In this document: one piece after another, positions 6,617 through 63,585 of the stretch
Layout: every line of letters starts with the position of its first letter
Position numbering within the stretch: position 1 is the stretch's first letter
Assembly: GCA_021325515.1 (NCBI GenBank)
Contig: JAJPHC010000015.1
Location: 1-64,000, forward strand
Origin: Acidobacteriota bacterium
Lineage (GTDB): Bacteria > Acidobacteriota > Thermoanaerobaculia > Gp7-AA8
Reading direction: 5' to 3'
DNA length: 64,000 bases
The notes under the pieces: generated by a model
Seen by the model: the letters and a program-made list of their open reading frames with translations, nothing else
Told to the model about the DNA's origin: nothing
Database searches by the model: none
Position numbers and translations under genes: made by a program

Positions 6617-7531
6617 ATGGCAAAGCTCCGGACGCTTCTTCGTCTCATCCTCTTTCTCGCAATCGTTTCCGCACCCTCCTACGTGCTCAAGCGCTGGCTC
6701 CGGATGTCTTCCTTCCACCCCGGCGAAGACGTTCTCTTCCTCCTCAGGTGCGCGGTCGACATTCCTCTCACTCTGTTTGCGACGTGGCTGATGGGACGCC
6801 TCGAATCGCGTACCGTTGCGGAGTACGGACTGCCATCGCGCCGCATGTTCCGTAGCGAGTTCTGGCGTGGTGCGCTCACCGGCTTTGCCAGCGTGAGCGC
6901 TCTTGTCGGCGCCATGGCTCTTGCCGGCGTCTTTCACGTCGAAGGCGTCGCGCTGCACGGCGCAGCAATCGTGAAATGGGCAGCGGCCTACCTGTTCGTC
7001 TTTGTCCTCGTCGGTGTACGCGAGGAATTCAGCAGCCGCGGCTACCTTCTTTCGAATCTCTCCGAGCTCCTCGGCTTCTGGCCGGCGGCAATCGCAACGT
7101 CGATTCTGTTCGGCATCGCGCATCTCGGCAATCGGAACGAGACCTGGACCGGCGTCGCGAACGCGGCTCTGTTCGGCCTGGTGATGTGCGCGATCCTGCG
7201 TCGCACGGGCAACCTCTGGATGCCGATCGGACTGCACGCCGCGTTCGACTGGGGGGAAACCTATTTTTATGGAGTGGCGGACAGCGGAGCGATCTCTCCC
7301 GGGCATCTGCTGAACACGAGATCGTCCGGCTCTGCCTGGCTGTCCGGCGGCGTCGTTGGACCGGAAGGCAGCGTGTTCTGCTCACTCCTGTTCGTCACGC
7401 TGTTGGTGCTATTCGCGAGACGGATGCGGAGACCAAACGCCGCTCAGCGCTCGCCGCTTCCGCAAAGCGACCCGATCACTCTCGCAGCCTCGGGCTCGAT
7501 CGCAAACGGAGACCGCGGATCGGCGAACTGA
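6617..7531 (+). CDS. CPBP-family intramembrane metalloprotease
   Basis: 304-residue polytopic membrane protein, about seven to eight hydrophobic segments. It has the CPBP (Abi/Rce1) motifs: EExxxR at residues 136-141 (REEFSSRG), a His at 169 in FGIAHLG, and a His at 207 in GLHAAFDW; these coordinate the catalytic metal. Members cleave prenylated or membrane substrates; the substrate here is unknown. ATG 6617 is chosen because upstream sequence reads antisense through lptFG. It is divergent from lptFG, and its 3' end overlaps the convergent spermidine-synthase-like gene by 88 bp. Confidence 0.85.
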   Translation: MAKLRTLLRLILFLAIVSAPSYVLKRWLRMSSFHPGEDVLFLLRCAVDIPLTLFATWLMGRLESRTVAEYGLPSRRMFRSEFWRGALTGFASVSALVGAMALAGVFHVEGVALHGAAIVKWAAAYLFVFVLVGVREEFSSRGYLLSNLSELLGFWPAAIATSILFGIAHLGNRNETWTGVANAALFGLVMCAILRRTGNLWMPIGLHAAFDWGETYFYGVADSGAISPGHLLNTRSSGSAWLSGGVVGPEGSVFCSLLFVTLLVLFARRMRRPNAAQRSPLPQSDPITLAASGSIANGDRGSAN

Positions 7532-9855
7532 CGGATCGCCTTCGCATTCATCGCCGCGAGGTCCTCACGCGCGAGGTTGTAGCGCGGAGTCTGGTACTCG
7601 AGCCAGCGATTCCGATCGGTGTTGATGATCGTTCCGCGAGCCGTCCGCTCGAGACGCGTCACATCCTCCGGCGAGAGCATCCGACCGCTCAACAGACTGC
7701 AGAGACCGTGCGAATCGACAGACCCGGGATAAGAGCCGAAGATCCGTACAGCGGCTTGAACACCGGCCGCTCGCATGACCTGAGGCTCCATCGTCGCAAC
7801 GGCGATTCCCTGTCCACCGAAGGACCAGAGGCTGACGTACGGAAACACCTTGCGGATCGTCAACAGAATCGAAGCGATCTCTCGCGGCGTTGTGTGATGC
7901 AGTTGAATCCACTGCTGCAGCACCGCATGCGGTTTCATTCGCGCGGCAGCGAGCTCATAGAAATTGCGGCTGTAGAGATTCGTCGCGCCGGCGAACCAGA
8001 TACTCGAGATCTCCATCGTAATCAGGTCGTACTTCTTCTCGTCCAGGAGCAGCAGATTGCGTCCGTCTTCCAGATGGATGTGCACGTTTGGTTGTGCGAG
8101 AAAGTCGCGGTTGACACGCCCGAAAAATGTCTGTGCCGCGACCAGCATCCCGGGCGCGATCTCGGCCACTTCGACATTGTGGAATCCCGCCGCCTGCACG
8201 GCACCACCTGATTGGCCCGTCCCCACACCAACCACGAGTGCGTCGTCGAACCGTGATGTGAACAGTGTCGGGACGGCGGCAAACCCAATCTGCGCCGCCA
8301 GCTCGCCTCCGTCGCTTCCCTGAAACTTGCCGTTGGTGAGCAGGACTCGCGTCCCTTTCGGGCTTGAAACGACCGTCGTAATGCCGCCCGCCGAGTCTTC
8401 GTGAAAGAAGAACAGTTTGGTCGAGGAGCTCACGAACATCGGCTCGAAGTAGACGTGCTCACCCGACGTGAGTCGCAGGCGGTCCCACTGCGGTGCGAGA
8501 CCGCTCACCAGCAGGGCGATGGCAACTGCGCCGAATCCAACCGCCCGCTGCCGGCCGGAGGCGGTCGCGAACAGGATCGCCGCACCCGCAATCGAGTACA
8601 CCATTGCGATGATGAGCAGTACCGCCTCGGAGCCGATCGACGGAATCGCGACGAAGGCGGTCAGCAAGGCACCGGCACAACAGCCGATCGTATTCGCTGC
8701 GGTCATCGTGCTGGCAGTTCTCCCCTGCTCGGCCGCGGGAAATTCACGTAGGCGGAAGAGCATCGGAAAGACGGAGCCGAGAATTGCCGACGGTGGCATC
8801 AGGACGACGGCAGCCACGGCAGCGCGCAGCAATTCAGCCCCTGCGAACCCTGTGACGCGCGATCCGAACAGAGTAAACGTGTGCGGCACATGCGGCCACA
8901 CCATCTGCTGGATCGCGACGGCCAGACCGCCGAGCGCCAGCATCGTAGCGGGAGCGGCGGCGGGTACGTCATCGCGTGATGGCAGGATTCGGCTGGCGAT
9001 TGCACCACCGATGAAGAGCCCGGCGAGAACCGCCGTCAGCATCGAGGCGAATGCATAGATCGTGTTGCCGCATACCGCCGCGATGAGATGCGTCCATACG
9101 ACTTCGAGCGCAAAAAAGAGGAATCCGCAAACGGCCGCGCTGCCGATGAGCAACAGTCGATGCGATACGCGTGCAGCCGGCTCGTCGTGTGCAGAGGCAC
9201 GAGAAACATCGTTGCTGACCATCTCGGGCGCCGTGCGTCCGAGATTCCAGGCAGCAAGGCCGACGACGACGTCGAGCGTCGTGAGGAGCAGCGCACCATC
9301 GACGCCGGCCCTCGCGAATACGACGTACGGCCCGGCTGCCGCGGCCGCGGTAGCTCCGAGAAGGTTGAGCGCGTAAAAGAAGCTGATGTCGTCACGGCGC
9401 GTGCTGCCGAGTTGATCGTGCAGTGCGTCGACGATCGCCGGAAACGTCGCACCCATGAACAGCGTCGGCGGAAGAATCCAAATTGACGCGACGAGCAGCC
9501 GGAGTGCGGTCAAGCCGGCGAAGCTTCCCGTGCCAAGACGCAGCAGTGGTACGAATGCGTTGATCAGATGTTCGAACGCAAAGTAGAGCACGAGAGCCCA
9601 CAGGCCGACCGCGCATTCGAGCACGGCGTAGATGCGCAACGGCCTGAGCGATGACCTGCGCCACCAGCGGTACGACCATGCGCCGAGCGTCAGGCCGGCG
9701 AAGTAGATCGTGAGCACGCTGGCGGCGGCATGGGTGCTCGTCCCGAGCAGAGTTTCGAGAAGCTTCTCGTACGCCTGCTCCGCGATCAACGCGGTTGCGC
9801 CGGTGCTGACGAAGAGTGCCGCCAGCGTGCGCCGTGCAGATCGTGGGATGTTCAA
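7444..9855 (-). CDS. Membrane-anchored spermidine synthase-like protein
   Basis: 803 residues starting with TTG. The N-terminal about 500 residues are hydrophobic, with roughly 12-14 membrane helices of the fused MFS/spermidine synthase type. The C-terminal about 280 residues are a methyltransferase-fold spermidine synthase-like domain (VVGVGTGQSGG glycine loop, LEDGRNLL, YDLITMEISS). True aminopropyl transfer is uncertain: such fusion proteins are common in environmental bacteria and mostly uncharacterised. It overlaps the upstream homoserine dehydrogenase by 4 bp and is the last gene of that operon. Its 3' end overlaps the CPBP gene by 88 bp. Confidence 0.75.
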   Translation of the reverse strand: MNIPRSARRTLAALFVSTGATALIAEQAYEKLLETLLGTSTHAAASVLTIYFAGLTLGAWSYRWWRRSSLRPLRIYAVLECAVGLWALVLYFAFEHLINAFVPLLRLGTGSFAGLTALRLLVASIWILPPTLFMGATFPAIVDALHDQLGSTRRDDISFFYALNLLGATAAAAAGPYVVFARAGVDGALLLTTLDVVVGLAAWNLGRTAPEMVSNDVSRASAHDEPAARVSHRLLLIGSAAVCGFLFFALEVVWTHLIAAVCGNTIYAFASMLTAVLAGLFIGGAIASRILPSRDDVPAAAPATMLALGGLAVAIQQMVWPHVPHTFTLFGSRVTGFAGAELLRAAVAAVVLMPPSAILGSVFPMLFRLREFPAAEQGRTASTMTAANTIGCCAGALLTAFVAIPSIGSEAVLLIIAMVYSIAGAAILFATASGRQRAVGFGAVAIALLVSGLAPQWDRLRLTSGEHVYFEPMFVSSSTKLFFFHEDSAGGITTVVSSPKGTRVLLTNGKFQGSDGGELAAQIGFAAVPTLFTSRFDDALVVGVGTGQSGGAVQAAGFHNVEVAEIAPGMLVAAQTFFGRVNRDFLAQPNVHIHLEDGRNLLLLDEKKYDLITMEISSIWFAGATNLYSRNFYELAAARMKPHAVLQQWIQLHHTTPREIASILLTIRKVFPYVSLWSFGGQGIAVATMEPQVMRAAGVQAAVRIFGSYPGSVDSHGLCSLLSGRMLSPEDVTRLERTARGTIINTDRNRWLEYQTPRYNLAREDLAAMNAKAIRQFADPRSPFAIEPEAARVIGSLCGSGER

Positions 9856-10826
9856 TCGATTCCGTTCATTTTATCGCTTCTCATCATGATGACATCGGAT
9901 ACGACGGCCGCGGCCGTTGGACCAGCACCCGCACCTCGTCCGATGAGCGTGATCTCGCCGGCCGCGCGGCTCTGAATCACGACGCCGTTGAACTCATCGC
10001 GGATGTGCGCGAGCGGATCGTGCGCCGTCAGCTGCACCGGGGCGACACGCAGCTCGATGCCTCCGGTCACGCGATGCGCGGAGGCAACCTGGCGGATGAC
10101 GCGCCCATGCTCGCGTGCGCGGATGACGTCCTCGTGTCGAATGCCGCGAATCCCGGCGATGGAGCTGCTGACGACAGGCTCGTCGAACGCGAGCCCGGCG
10201 AGGATCCGCAGTTTCTGCGCGGCATCTTCGCCGTCGATATCGAGCGACGGATCCGCCTCGGCGAACCCGCGCTCCTGTGCGAGGGCCAGCGCCGCGTCGA
10301 ACGAAAGACGGTCCGCTTCGATGCGCGTCAGGACGTAATTCGACGTGCCGTTGAGAATCCCGCGGACGCAATCGATCGTGTCGGCCGCGAGCCCGTCGCG
10401 AATCGCGCGGATCACCGGGATTCCACCGCAGACGCTCGCCTCGAACCCGATCGTCACGCCACGCCTGACTGCGGCCGCGAAGAGATCGCGGCCGCAGTCA
10501 GCGAGAAGAGCCTTGTTGGCGGTGACGACGTGGCGCCCGTTGGCGATGGCGCGGCGCACGTACGCGCCGGCGCAATGGACGCCGCCCACGGTTTCGACGA
10601 TGACATCGCAGCTCGCATCGAGCACGTCCGTCGCGCGCGTCGTCAGCAGCCGCCGGTCGACTCCCGGCCGCGGCTTGGCGAGATCGCGCACGAGAATCTT
10701 CTCGATCGTCAGCTCGACACCATGGCGCTCGCGAATCCGTTCCCGCTCCCGATCGATGAGGTGTACGACTCCCCCGCCGACGGTTCCGCATCCCAGCAGC
10801 CCGAGTCGAAGTCTCGCGGCGCTCAT
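9852..10826 (-). CDS. hom: Homoserine dehydrogenase (no ACT domain)
   Basis: 324 residues. An N-terminal NAD(P)-binding Rossmann domain (GLLGCGTVGGG, residues about 9-19) and a catalytic domain with GGIPVIRAIRDGL and ILNGTSNYVL are present. The enzyme reduces aspartate semialdehyde to homoserine, the branch to threonine and methionine. The usual bacterial enzyme is about 430 residues and ends in an ACT domain for threonine feedback; this one stops before it, as in short archaeal and some bacterial forms. Both neighbours overlap by 4 bp; the upstream gene is a trans-sulfuration enzyme, which implies a role in methionine supply. Confidence 0.92.
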   Translation of the reverse strand: MSAARLRLGLLGCGTVGGGVVHLIDRERERIRERHGVELTIEKILVRDLAKPRPGVDRRLLTTRATDVLDASCDVIVETVGGVHCAGAYVRRAIANGRHVVTANKALLADCGRDLFAAAVRRGVTIGFEASVCGGIPVIRAIRDGLAADTIDCVRGILNGTSNYVLTRIEADRLSFDAALALAQERGFAEADPSLDIDGEDAAQKLRILAGLAFDEPVVSSSIAGIRGIRHEDVIRAREHGRVIRQVASAHRVTGGIELRVAPVQLTAHDPLAHIRDEFNGVVIQSRAAGEITLIGRGAGAGPTAAAVVSDVIMMRSDKMNGID

Positions 10827-11998
10827 GCTTCAGCACTCCTCGCCGGAATGCGCGTTACGGAGAGCGCCTGCTCCAGATCGTCGATCAGATCGCGCACATC
10901 TTCGAGCCCGACCGACAGTCTGATGAGCCCATCGCTGATTCCGACGCTCTTTCTCACCTCGGGTTCCACCGATGCGTGAGTCATCGTCGCCGGATGGCAG
11001 AACAGACTGCGCACGCTGCCGAGGCTTTCGGCGAGCGTCCAGAGTTTCAGGTGGCGCGTGAAGGCGCGCGTCTCCTCGAGCGTCGTGTCGAGCTCGAATG
11101 AGACGACCGCGCCGAAGCGCTCCATCTGGCGCCGCGCCACGGCGTGGCCCTCGTGCGTCGCGAGGCCGGGATAGAACACCCGCGACACCGCGTCGTGGCG
11201 TTCGAGATACTCCACGATCCGCTCGGCGTTGTCGCAATGCTTCTGCACGCGGAGCGAAAGCGTCTTCGTGCCGCGCAGGATGAGGAAACAATCCTGCGGG
11301 CCGGGGACGGCGCCGATCGCGTTCTGATAGAAGTGCAGATCGGCGGCGAGCGCGTCGTCGTTGGTGATGACGACTCCGCCGAGGACATCGCTGTGGCCGT
11401 TGATGTACTTGGTGGTCGAGTGCAGGACGAGGTCGGCGCCGAGCGCGAGCGGATGCTGCAGGAGCGGCGTTGCGAACGTGTTGTCGACTACGGTGCGGAC
11501 GCCGGCGCGCCGCGCGATGGCGGCGCACGCCGCGATGTCCGTGATCTTCAGCAGCGGATTCGAGGGAGTCTCGAGCCAGAGCAGCTTCGTTTCGGGGCGG
11601 ATCGCTCCCGCGATCGTGAATGGATCGCCGGGATCGATGAAGGTGAACTCCACGCCGAATTTCGCAAAGTACTTTGTGAAGATCCGCCAGGCGCCGCCGT
11701 AGAGATCGCGGGTCGAGATGACATGATCGCCGGCGCGCAGCAGCGAGAGCACGCCGTGAATCGCGGCCATGCCGCTGGCGAAGGCGACGCCGTGCTGCGC
11801 TCCTTCCAGCGAAGCGAGATTTTCCTCGAGCGCGCGGCGCGTCGGGTGGCCGGTGCGCGCGTAGCAGTAACCGCGGTTGATGCCCGGTTCCGTCTGGCGG
11901 AACGTCGAGGTCTGGTAGATCGGGAACGAGACTGCACCGGTCGTCTCATCGTCGGGTTGACCGGCATGGATGGCGAGCGTATCGAGTCGATACGACAT
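10823..11998 (-). CDS. Trans-sulfuration PLP enzyme (cystathionine gamma-synthase / O-acylhomoserine sulfhydrylase type)
   Basis: 391 residues of the Cys/Met-metabolism PLP family. Visible features: YARTGHPTRRALEENLASLEG near the N-terminus, the DNTFATP stretch, and the PLP-lysine motif HSTTKYINGHSD. The family includes MetB, MetZ, MetC and methionine gamma-lyase, which cannot be separated by eye. Pairing with homoserine dehydrogenase and the methionine-rich leader peptide upstream favours a biosynthetic role (MetB or MetZ). ATG 11998 is chosen over an in-frame codon at 12019 because AGGAGG stands 7-8 bp before it. Its stop overlaps hom by 4 bp. Confidence 0.88.
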   Translation of the reverse strand: MSYRLDTLAIHAGQPDDETTGAVSFPIYQTSTFRQTEPGINRGYCYARTGHPTRRALEENLASLEGAQHGVAFASGMAAIHGVLSLLRAGDHVISTRDLYGGAWRIFTKYFAKFGVEFTFIDPGDPFTIAGAIRPETKLLWLETPSNPLLKITDIAACAAIARRAGVRTVVDNTFATPLLQHPLALGADLVLHSTTKYINGHSDVLGGVVITNDDALAADLHFYQNAIGAVPGPQDCFLILRGTKTLSLRVQKHCDNAERIVEYLERHDAVSRVFYPGLATHEGHAVARRQMERFGAVVSFELDTTLEETRAFTRHLKLWTLAESLGSVRSLFCHPATMTHASVEPEVRKSVGISDGLIRLSVGLEDVRDLIDDLEQALSVTRIPARSAEA

Positions 11999-12057
11999 GA
12001 GTTTCCCTCCTGCGCGCAATGCGCTCGTGTGTTCGAACTGCGGGAATCGTGTGAGTG

Positions 12058-12114
12058 AAAAAGGACGGAGGGACCCTGGCCGAAGACGCGAGGAATTACG
12101 CGTCCGCGCCAGGG
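12058..12114 (-). promoter_or_regulatory. Leader hairpin, candidate attenuator
   Basis: On the minus strand CCCTGGC (12114-12108) pairs with GCCAGGG (12080-12074), and GACGCG (12104-12099) pairs with CGCGTC (12090-12085), giving a two-part stem with an 8-nt loop. Five T residues occur at 12062-12058, but about 12 nt after the stem, so it is not a canonical terminator. A second CGCGTC copy at 12154-12149 could pair with the same GACGCG and act as an alternative fold. Confidence 0.45.
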
Positions 12115-12128
12115 CGGCGCATCATCAT
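12096..12128 (-). CDS. Candidate methionine leader peptide (10 aa)
   Basis: Short reading frame ATG ATG ATG CGC CGC ... TAA, translated MMMRRPGADA. It lies in the leader between the promoter at 12170-12198 and the trans-sulfuration gene. The stop codon falls in the loop of the hairpin at 12074-12114. Three consecutive Met codons ahead of a methionine biosynthesis operon resemble ribosome-mediated attenuators. An AGGG is present 4 nt upstream of the first ATG, a weak ribosome-binding site. Too short to prove by sequence; chance occurrence is possible. Confidence 0.45.
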   Translation of the reverse strand: MMMRRPGADA

Positions 12129-12169
12129 TCGGCCCTGCTGGGTGAAGTGACGCGGCATGTTGGCGGAGG

Positions 12170-12198
12170 ACGATACGCTCGTCGCCGGGATCTGTCAA
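12170..12198 (-). promoter_or_regulatory. Sigma-70-type promoter of the methionine operon
   Basis: On the minus strand TTGACA (12198-12193) is followed after exactly 17 bp by TATCGT (12175-12170). The predicted start near 12163 gives a leader of about 165 nt before the trans-sulfuration gene, long enough to hold the leader peptide and hairpin described separately. Confidence 0.75.
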
Positions 12199-12236: not shown

Positions 12237-12608
12237 CTATTGCGCGAGGAACTTCTCGACTTGTGCGACGAAGGTCAGGCCGTTTCCGGTCTTTTTGATG
12301 TAACCCATCGCGGGTGAGCGCTCGACGAGCGACTGAAGCTCTTCTTCGCTTTTCGATGAATGCAGGACAATGCGCGTCTGTCGCAGAAAGTCGAAGAGCG
12401 TCGTGAAGTCGAGCACATGCTCGCCCGACAGCGCGGGCATCTCGATGTCGAGCAGAACGAGATCGGGCTTCTCACGCTGGACGAGCTGCGGCATCCGCAG
12501 CGGCGATTCGGTCGTGACGACCTCGTATCCCGCAGCTTCGAGAAGACGCTTGGCGACGCTCAATGCTTTCGCGTCGTCATCGATCACCATGATCTTGCCC
12601 TTGGCCAT
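12237..12608 (-). CDS. Single-domain response regulator (CheY-like)
   Basis: 123 residues, a lone receiver domain. The acidic pocket (Asp10-Asp12), phosphoacceptor Asp54 in LVLLDIEMP, Ser at 84/85 and Lys105 in GYIKKTG are all present, so phosphorylation looks feasible. There is no output domain. The start codon overlaps the parB stop (TGATG), so translation is coupled to the partition genes. No histidine kinase is in the window. The link to ParAB hints at a role in chromosome segregation or cell-cycle control, but that is inference from position. Confidence 0.88.
   Translation of the reverse strand: MAKGKIMVIDDDAKALSVAKRLLEAAGYEVVTTESPLRMPQLVQREKPDLVLLDIEMPALSGEHVLDFTTLFDFLRQTRIVLHSSKSEEELQSLVERSPAMGYIKKTGNGLTFVAQVEKFLAQ

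Positions 12609-63214: not shown

Positions 63215-63585
<371 letters not shown>

Follow-up and report, generated by a model that had tools for sequence, protein, structure and literature searches.

A putative methionine-sensing leader precedes a cystathionine gamma-synthase family gene in Acidobacteriota and Phycisphaerales

The leader of a cystathionine gamma-synthase/lyase family gene (CGS) in the window, the 64,000-nucleotide stretch of an Acidobacteriota contig analyzed here (JAJPHC010000015.1; host genome 5.38 Mb), is probably a ribosome-mediated attenuator that senses methionine through an M-x-M motif in a leaderless peptide and most likely controls CGS translation. Comparison of the leader sequences across relatives supports the open reading frame (ORF), its frame, the Met codons, the hairpin and its covariation, a single-origin linkage to CGS and, in Phycisphaerales, competition between a segment behind the Met codons (segment A) and the Shine-Dalgarno (SD) region. 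Ribosome stalling on Met starvation and the direction of the switch would follow from this arrangement, and the compact acidobacterial form found in the window would work like its Phycisphaerales counterpart.

The leader and the operon behind it

The leader is read from the minus strand and is flanked upstream by a response regulator gene of the same strand that ends at 12237 (Table 1). The promoter proposed in the initial annotation was recovered, with TTGACA at 12198–12193 separated by a 17-bp spacer from TATCGT at 12175–12170; its score of 10/12 against the consensus compares with 0.0 expected in shuffles, and a similar promoter precedes the leader in most relatives. The leader peptide had been given as MMMRRPGADA. 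Its Met run is present, but MMMRRPGADA is the second half of a 20-residue peptide, MPRHFTQQGRMMMRRPGADA, in which the run is internal and whose leaderless ORF opens at ATG 12158, ~2 nt downstream of the predicted transcription start. We consider this ATG the real start because its position relative to the promoter is the same in the relatives, where it shares the frame of M-x-M at ~10 different distances. A search for a larger protein or known peptide family that would account for the ORF yielded no NCBIfam or Pfam match.

Table 1. Features of the leader and of the operon behind it in the window.
Feature	Position	Strand	Basis
Sigma-70 type promoter, TTGACA-17-TATCGT	12170..12198	-	10/12 consensus, shuffle comparison
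Leaderless leader ORF, 20 codons and stop	12096..12158	-	In-frame equivalents in all relatives
M-x-M sensor codons (ATG ATG ATG)	12120..12128	-	Alignment of 26 leaders
Segment A, 5' arm of P1 (GCCCTGGC)	12108..12115	-	Hairpin prediction and leader alignment
Inner helix P2 (GGACGCG/CGCGTCT)	12084..12105	-	Stop codon in loop
3' arm of P1 (GCCAGGGT), 5' half of segment C	12073..12080	-	Hairpin prediction and alignment
TCCCTCC, 3' half of segment C	12067..12073	-	Complementary to CGS Shine-Dalgarno
Shine-Dalgarno GGAGGGA of CGS	12004..12010	-	Sequence
CGS, start ATG 11998	10823..11998	-	Profile matches
Homoserine dehydrogenase	9852..10826	-	PRK06349 above cut-off

The two-part hairpin with the stop codon in its loop, as originally described, was found again, with a predicted dG of -28.5 (z -3.55 against dinucleotide shuffles). 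Its outer helix P1 (12115–12108/12080–12073) begins 13 nt downstream of the A that opens the first Met codon and pairs CCCTGG, the Pro-Gly codons, with a downstream CCAGGG; the arms of P2 (12105–12099/12090–12084) enclose a loop containing the leader stop codon TAA (12098–12096). Behind the hairpin, CCCTCC leads into a C-rich tail and then the SD sequence GGAGGGA, with which TCCCTCC pairs in the predicted fold. The alternative pairing suggested for an upstream copy of CGCGTC fared less well: the copy exists at 12154–12149, but it falls in variable N-terminal codons and is not conserved. A 4-bp mini hairpin, GNUG-AUG-CGYC, was also noticed around the third Met codon (about 12126–12116 in the window, alignment columns 12–22). 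It has G-C in 8/16 leaders and A-U in 4/16, which suggests covariation, although the remaining rows are unpaired.

The assignment of the leader to a methionine operon was borne out. CGS matches PRK07671, PRK07811 and other models, all below their equivalog cut-offs, and the gene for homoserine dehydrogenase (hom) overlaps the CGS stop codon, placing both in the same operon. The same neighbor stands downstream of CGS at most acidobacterial loci, in the groundwater bacterium L009 and in the Phycisphaerales loci L104–L107; it was not adjacent to the CGS genes tested that lack a leader. Just downstream of the window operon (7447–9855, minus strand) lies a gene for an 803-aa protein matching a fused MFS/spermidine synthase (NF037959), and a bacterial class A RNase P RNA occupies 63215–63581 of the minus strand (Rfam RF00010, 267.9 bits).

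Conservation and single origin of the leader

Relatives were collected by protein search with the window CGS, the nearest named ones being metagenome-assembled genomes labelled Thermoanaerobaculia or Acidobacteria gp7. Reading from the promoter, the first ATG of each leader shares its frame with M-x-M; the spacing between the two runs from 24 to 66 nt in ~10 lengths, all multiples of three, and most leaders have an in-frame stop just upstream of the ORF start. The outer two codons of M-x-M are ATG in 26/26 leaders even though they lie outside the P1/P2 stem, an invariance that is partly by construction as leaders in CGS loci were recognized by motif. The middle codon of the same 26 leaders is ATG, GTG, TTG, GCG or ATC (M, V, L, A or I), and the two codons after M-x-M are variable. 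Because the outer Met codons are invariant although the stem does not include them, and the middle codon varies freely, the leader would appear to sense codons rather than being a fixed peptide.

The hairpin is tied to these codons. With the first Met codon beginning at position a, the hairpin starts near a+13 in almost every leader, seemingly earlier starts reflecting extra small helices; this spacing stays fixed while the stop codon ranges from a+24 to a+60. Pairing in the hairpin alignment reaches 93.4%, compared with at most 48% when the alignment is slid, and 14 double-change cells were observed vs 5.1 in shuffles; the window itself contributes a compensatory change, with T-A in P1 where all other leaders have G-C. 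P2 and the loops diverge freely between relatives, with P2 pairing kept, and the mean folding z across leaders is -2.3. Aligning the leader across relatives had been proposed from the outset as a way to look for conserved Met codons and covarying stems, and both were found, with no riboswitch match. As in ribosome-mediated attenuators, a short ORF carries codons for the amino acid of the pathway, and a conserved structure involves the RNA segment directly behind them.

The region between hairpin and gene is diverse. Six leaders (L006, L011, L033, L041, L003 and L004) share a conserved stretch, CACGCAAAGAACCTT, 15–35 nt before CGS, between hairpin and SD. Spacers of 220–340 nt in L002 and L035 are filled with GC-rich inverted-repeat elements of the GCGGGCGTCTCGCCCGC type, and those of L010 and L050 extend to 370–500 nt. 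In L010, this spacer includes another strong hairpin, with arms CCCGG/CCGGG, as well as a short ORF (MSLVSMPLPDAGH); a second control element may lie here.

Wherever the upstream DNA could be read, every CGS gene of the clade is preceded by the leader: 16 Acidobacteriota rows, all of one family, one groundwater bacterium (L009; peptide ending in VHEMAMRRPGTSA) and eight genes of the order Phycisphaerales. The latter comprise L012/L104, which carries the Phycisphaerales label, and seven further genes from the same order, with complete peptides including MQYGRQNNLTLTMAMRRPGTGRKILCRGSRVA and MKRSTETTLLAIIPSDEAHLSMIMPSPSTGVFDLCAGFRGV. Within the family of the window, all CGS orthologues of at least ~69% identity have the leader, one per genome where tested; none was seen before the CGS paralogues (53%) in these genomes, nor before other Phycisphaerales CGS genes below ~60% identity. 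Scanning 298 genomes from the class containing the Phycisphaerales-type leaders for the DNA pattern, without reference to the gene, recovered the eight known leaders and three new ones (L143–L145), all directly before CGS, together with six matches in other frames that look like chance. The same approach elsewhere in Acidobacteriota gave two matches in one genome, inside unrelated frames, which we also judged to be chance.

A maximum-likelihood tree built from 70 proteins of the CGS family groups the 25 with a leader in one clade (support 100/100), requiring a single gain. The leader thus seems, on this phylogeny, to have a single origin and to pass between phyla together with the CGS gene. 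Genome G499 holds two CGS copies (L129 and L139), one in the leader clade with leader and hom and the other without a leader, which suggests that the leader-CGS-hom unit was acquired horizontally.

Competition for segment C and the output of the leader

Judged from the Phycisphaerales leaders, the output is probably translational, through competition for an anti-SD segment, rather than classical terminator/antiterminator attenuation. In these leaders, segment A has a long-range partner, segment C, with an A:C duplex of -31 to -38 kcal/mol (reached by 0–1 of 400 shuffles), and the same C pairs with the CGS SD region, the two sites overlapping by 10–21 nt. The joint energies and overlap were matched by 0/400 shuffled spacers in each of L104, L108–L111 and L143–L145, the SD:C energy by itself being not unusual in L109 and L111. 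L105–L107 have the same A/C/SD layout with less overlap (shuffle support 0–2/300), and folding and shuffle tests gave no support for the competition in L009. Segment A resembles the SD region it would compete with, as in GGGAGTC, present in both in L143, and GAGTACGGGG and CAAGTACGGAG in L108. Hiding A lowers the predicted SD accessibility in 7/8 leaders (L104, L108–L111, L143–L145), L143 showing the opposite change.

In Acidobacteriota, C seems to be compact: ACCCGGGT, which pairs with A, runs directly into CCCTCC, which pairs with the SD, so that A uses one half and the SD the other, with 4–7 nt shared. The compact segment is the best partner of the SD within the leader in most short-spacer cases, and the anti-SD:SD duplex averages -14.9 kcal/mol vs -11.4 ± 0.8 for shuffled anti-SD segments (11 leaders). 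In a swap test among Acidobacteriota, the anti-SD of a species fitted its own SD no better than those of other species (p 0.36), and partition-function folding of acidobacterial leaders, including that of the window, left the SD paired in both states; the A and SD pairings can coexist in the predicted fold. The exclusive alternative fold is clear in the Phycisphaerales leaders, and folding does not reproduce it in the window's own family; because the SD accessibility there is unchanged, the switch in the window form is inferred from its relatives.

The leader could operate as follows. When charged Met-tRNA is scarce, the ribosome would pause on the first Met codon, its leading edge reaching the base of segment A; A, left free, would pair with C, the anti-SD segment, and the CGS start site would be open. 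When Met is plentiful, the ribosome would run through A, releasing C to pair with the SD region and turning translation off. Given that a ribosome covers ~12 nt beyond the codon being read (PMC4833913) and that the hairpin begins near a+13, a ribosome at the first Met codon would leave A just free, and one that has moved further would cover it. Of the ribosome-mediated Met attenuation originally put forward, the Met-codon peptide and the hairpin, which covaries, stand; the evidence points to translational control, with no intrinsic terminator in the window leader.

Transcription attenuation is the main rival, although we regard it as unlikely: the same Met codons would be sensed, the hairpin would act as antiterminator, and the output would be termination, intrinsic in some lineages and Rho-dependent in Acidobacteriota. 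In L104 the 3' arm of P1 has an alternative partner, CTCCGCAC before TTTTT, in a fold seen solely with A hidden, and L105 has GCGGGTC-GCCT-GATCCGC-TTTTT; a C-rich, G-poor stretch that would suit Rho follows the hairpin in most acidobacterial leaders, four of which have 200–500 nt between hairpin and gene. However, terminator-like hairpins were seen only in L104/L105 and a few other leaders, and the terminator of L105–L107 does not compete with P1. Examined on the minus strand, the window leader shows no classical intrinsic terminator (GC-rich hairpin and T run), and a simple terminator at the hairpin was rejected, as no T run lies directly behind it. Termination would also leave the competition of A and SD for the same C unexplained.

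Nascent-chain arrest, in which the core M-x-M-x-x-P would stall the ribosome in response to SAM or Met like the MTO1 region of plant CGS, is very unlikely. The Pro at +3 after the second Met is invariant, RRPG is common and the downstream gene is a CGS homologue; yet the invariant Pro codon lies in the stem, where RNA pairing accounts for it, the residues next to the Met codons are variable (M/V/L/A/I/S between; R/P, then R/C/S after), and a stall at high Met would free A and switch the gene on. Its evolutionary version, a Met/SAM-responsive arrest peptide that is the bacterial counterpart of plant CGS1 MTO1 and was inherited with the homologous enzyme across phyla, seems less probable still. 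Strong nucleotide conservation around the hairpin in Acidobacteriota might instead reflect an undescribed SAM or Met riboswitch with incidental translation; we consider this highly improbable, given a frame kept at ~10 lengths, a freely variable inner helix and loops, the absence, apart from the Met codons, of any conserved unpaired core, and the lack of Rfam similarity. A known SAM riboswitch was rejected, in agreement with the initial annotation, as the leader has no Rfam match even at E<=1 and SAM-I (RF00162) is absent from the 13 genomes searched of the window's family. Least plausible of all is an ORF that merely boosts CGS translation by reinitiation: leader genes of this kind have been reported in Acidobacteria and Planctomycetes, but the effect needs ~10 nt from stop to start (PMC4833913), compared with 70–460 nt here.

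Relation to known leaders

In the trp and his attenuators of enterobacteria, ribosome stalling at codons of the pathway amino acid selects between two RNA folds, with an intrinsic terminator as the output. The stalling logic proposed here is alike, whereas the output is most likely access to the start site, for which the leader appears to use a stretch mimicking the SD region. Most of what is known about leader peptides of amino acid operons comes from Proteobacteria, Actinobacteria and some Firmicutes (PMC2965389); according to a 2010 survey, hardly any attenuator predicted in Acidobacteria has been given a function. We found no description of a Met leader in Acidobacteriota or Planctomycetota in the open-access literature searched.

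Among the closest parallels is the metL leader before metNIQ of Streptomyces lividans, predicted from RNA-seq, whose leaderless ORF encodes the peptide MSTTSDRTPATEATTTPGARCMCRRMCAF (PMC8079986). Both leaders place a leaderless Met-codon ORF before a Met gene and have hairpins without a typical terminator; they differ in phylum, gene and peptide, and metL was given without comparative structure (PMC8079986). For Actinobacteria, no conserved RNA structure was reported before Met operons (PMC1262725). The LEU element before leuA of Actinobacteria, in which the Leu codons pair with the SD and mutations of these codons are without effect (Seliverstov 2005, PMC1262725), likewise combines codons of the pathway amino acid with a structure involving the SD of the gene and no terminator. 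In the present leader, however, it is segment A, downstream of the codons, that would compete with the SD for pairing with C; LEU-type codon:SD pairing was not found, the Met codons lying outside the P1/P2 stem and being unpaired with the SD in the predicted folds. The terminator-less cys leader peptides of Mycobacterium, for which Rho has been proposed, also serve a sulfur amino acid, and differ in sensing cysteine and in genes and phylum (PMC1262725).

What our analysis describes is probably a conserved Met attenuator with a single origin, present in Acidobacteriota and Phycisphaerales, that accompanies one and the same gene in different phyla and would be suitable for Rfam. Compared with the SAM-I riboswitch, which controls Met genes elsewhere in the class (three genomes of other families, in one of them ~1.2 kb before a CGS-family gene) and which it matches in neither sequence nor structure, the leader stands where those families have SAM-I.
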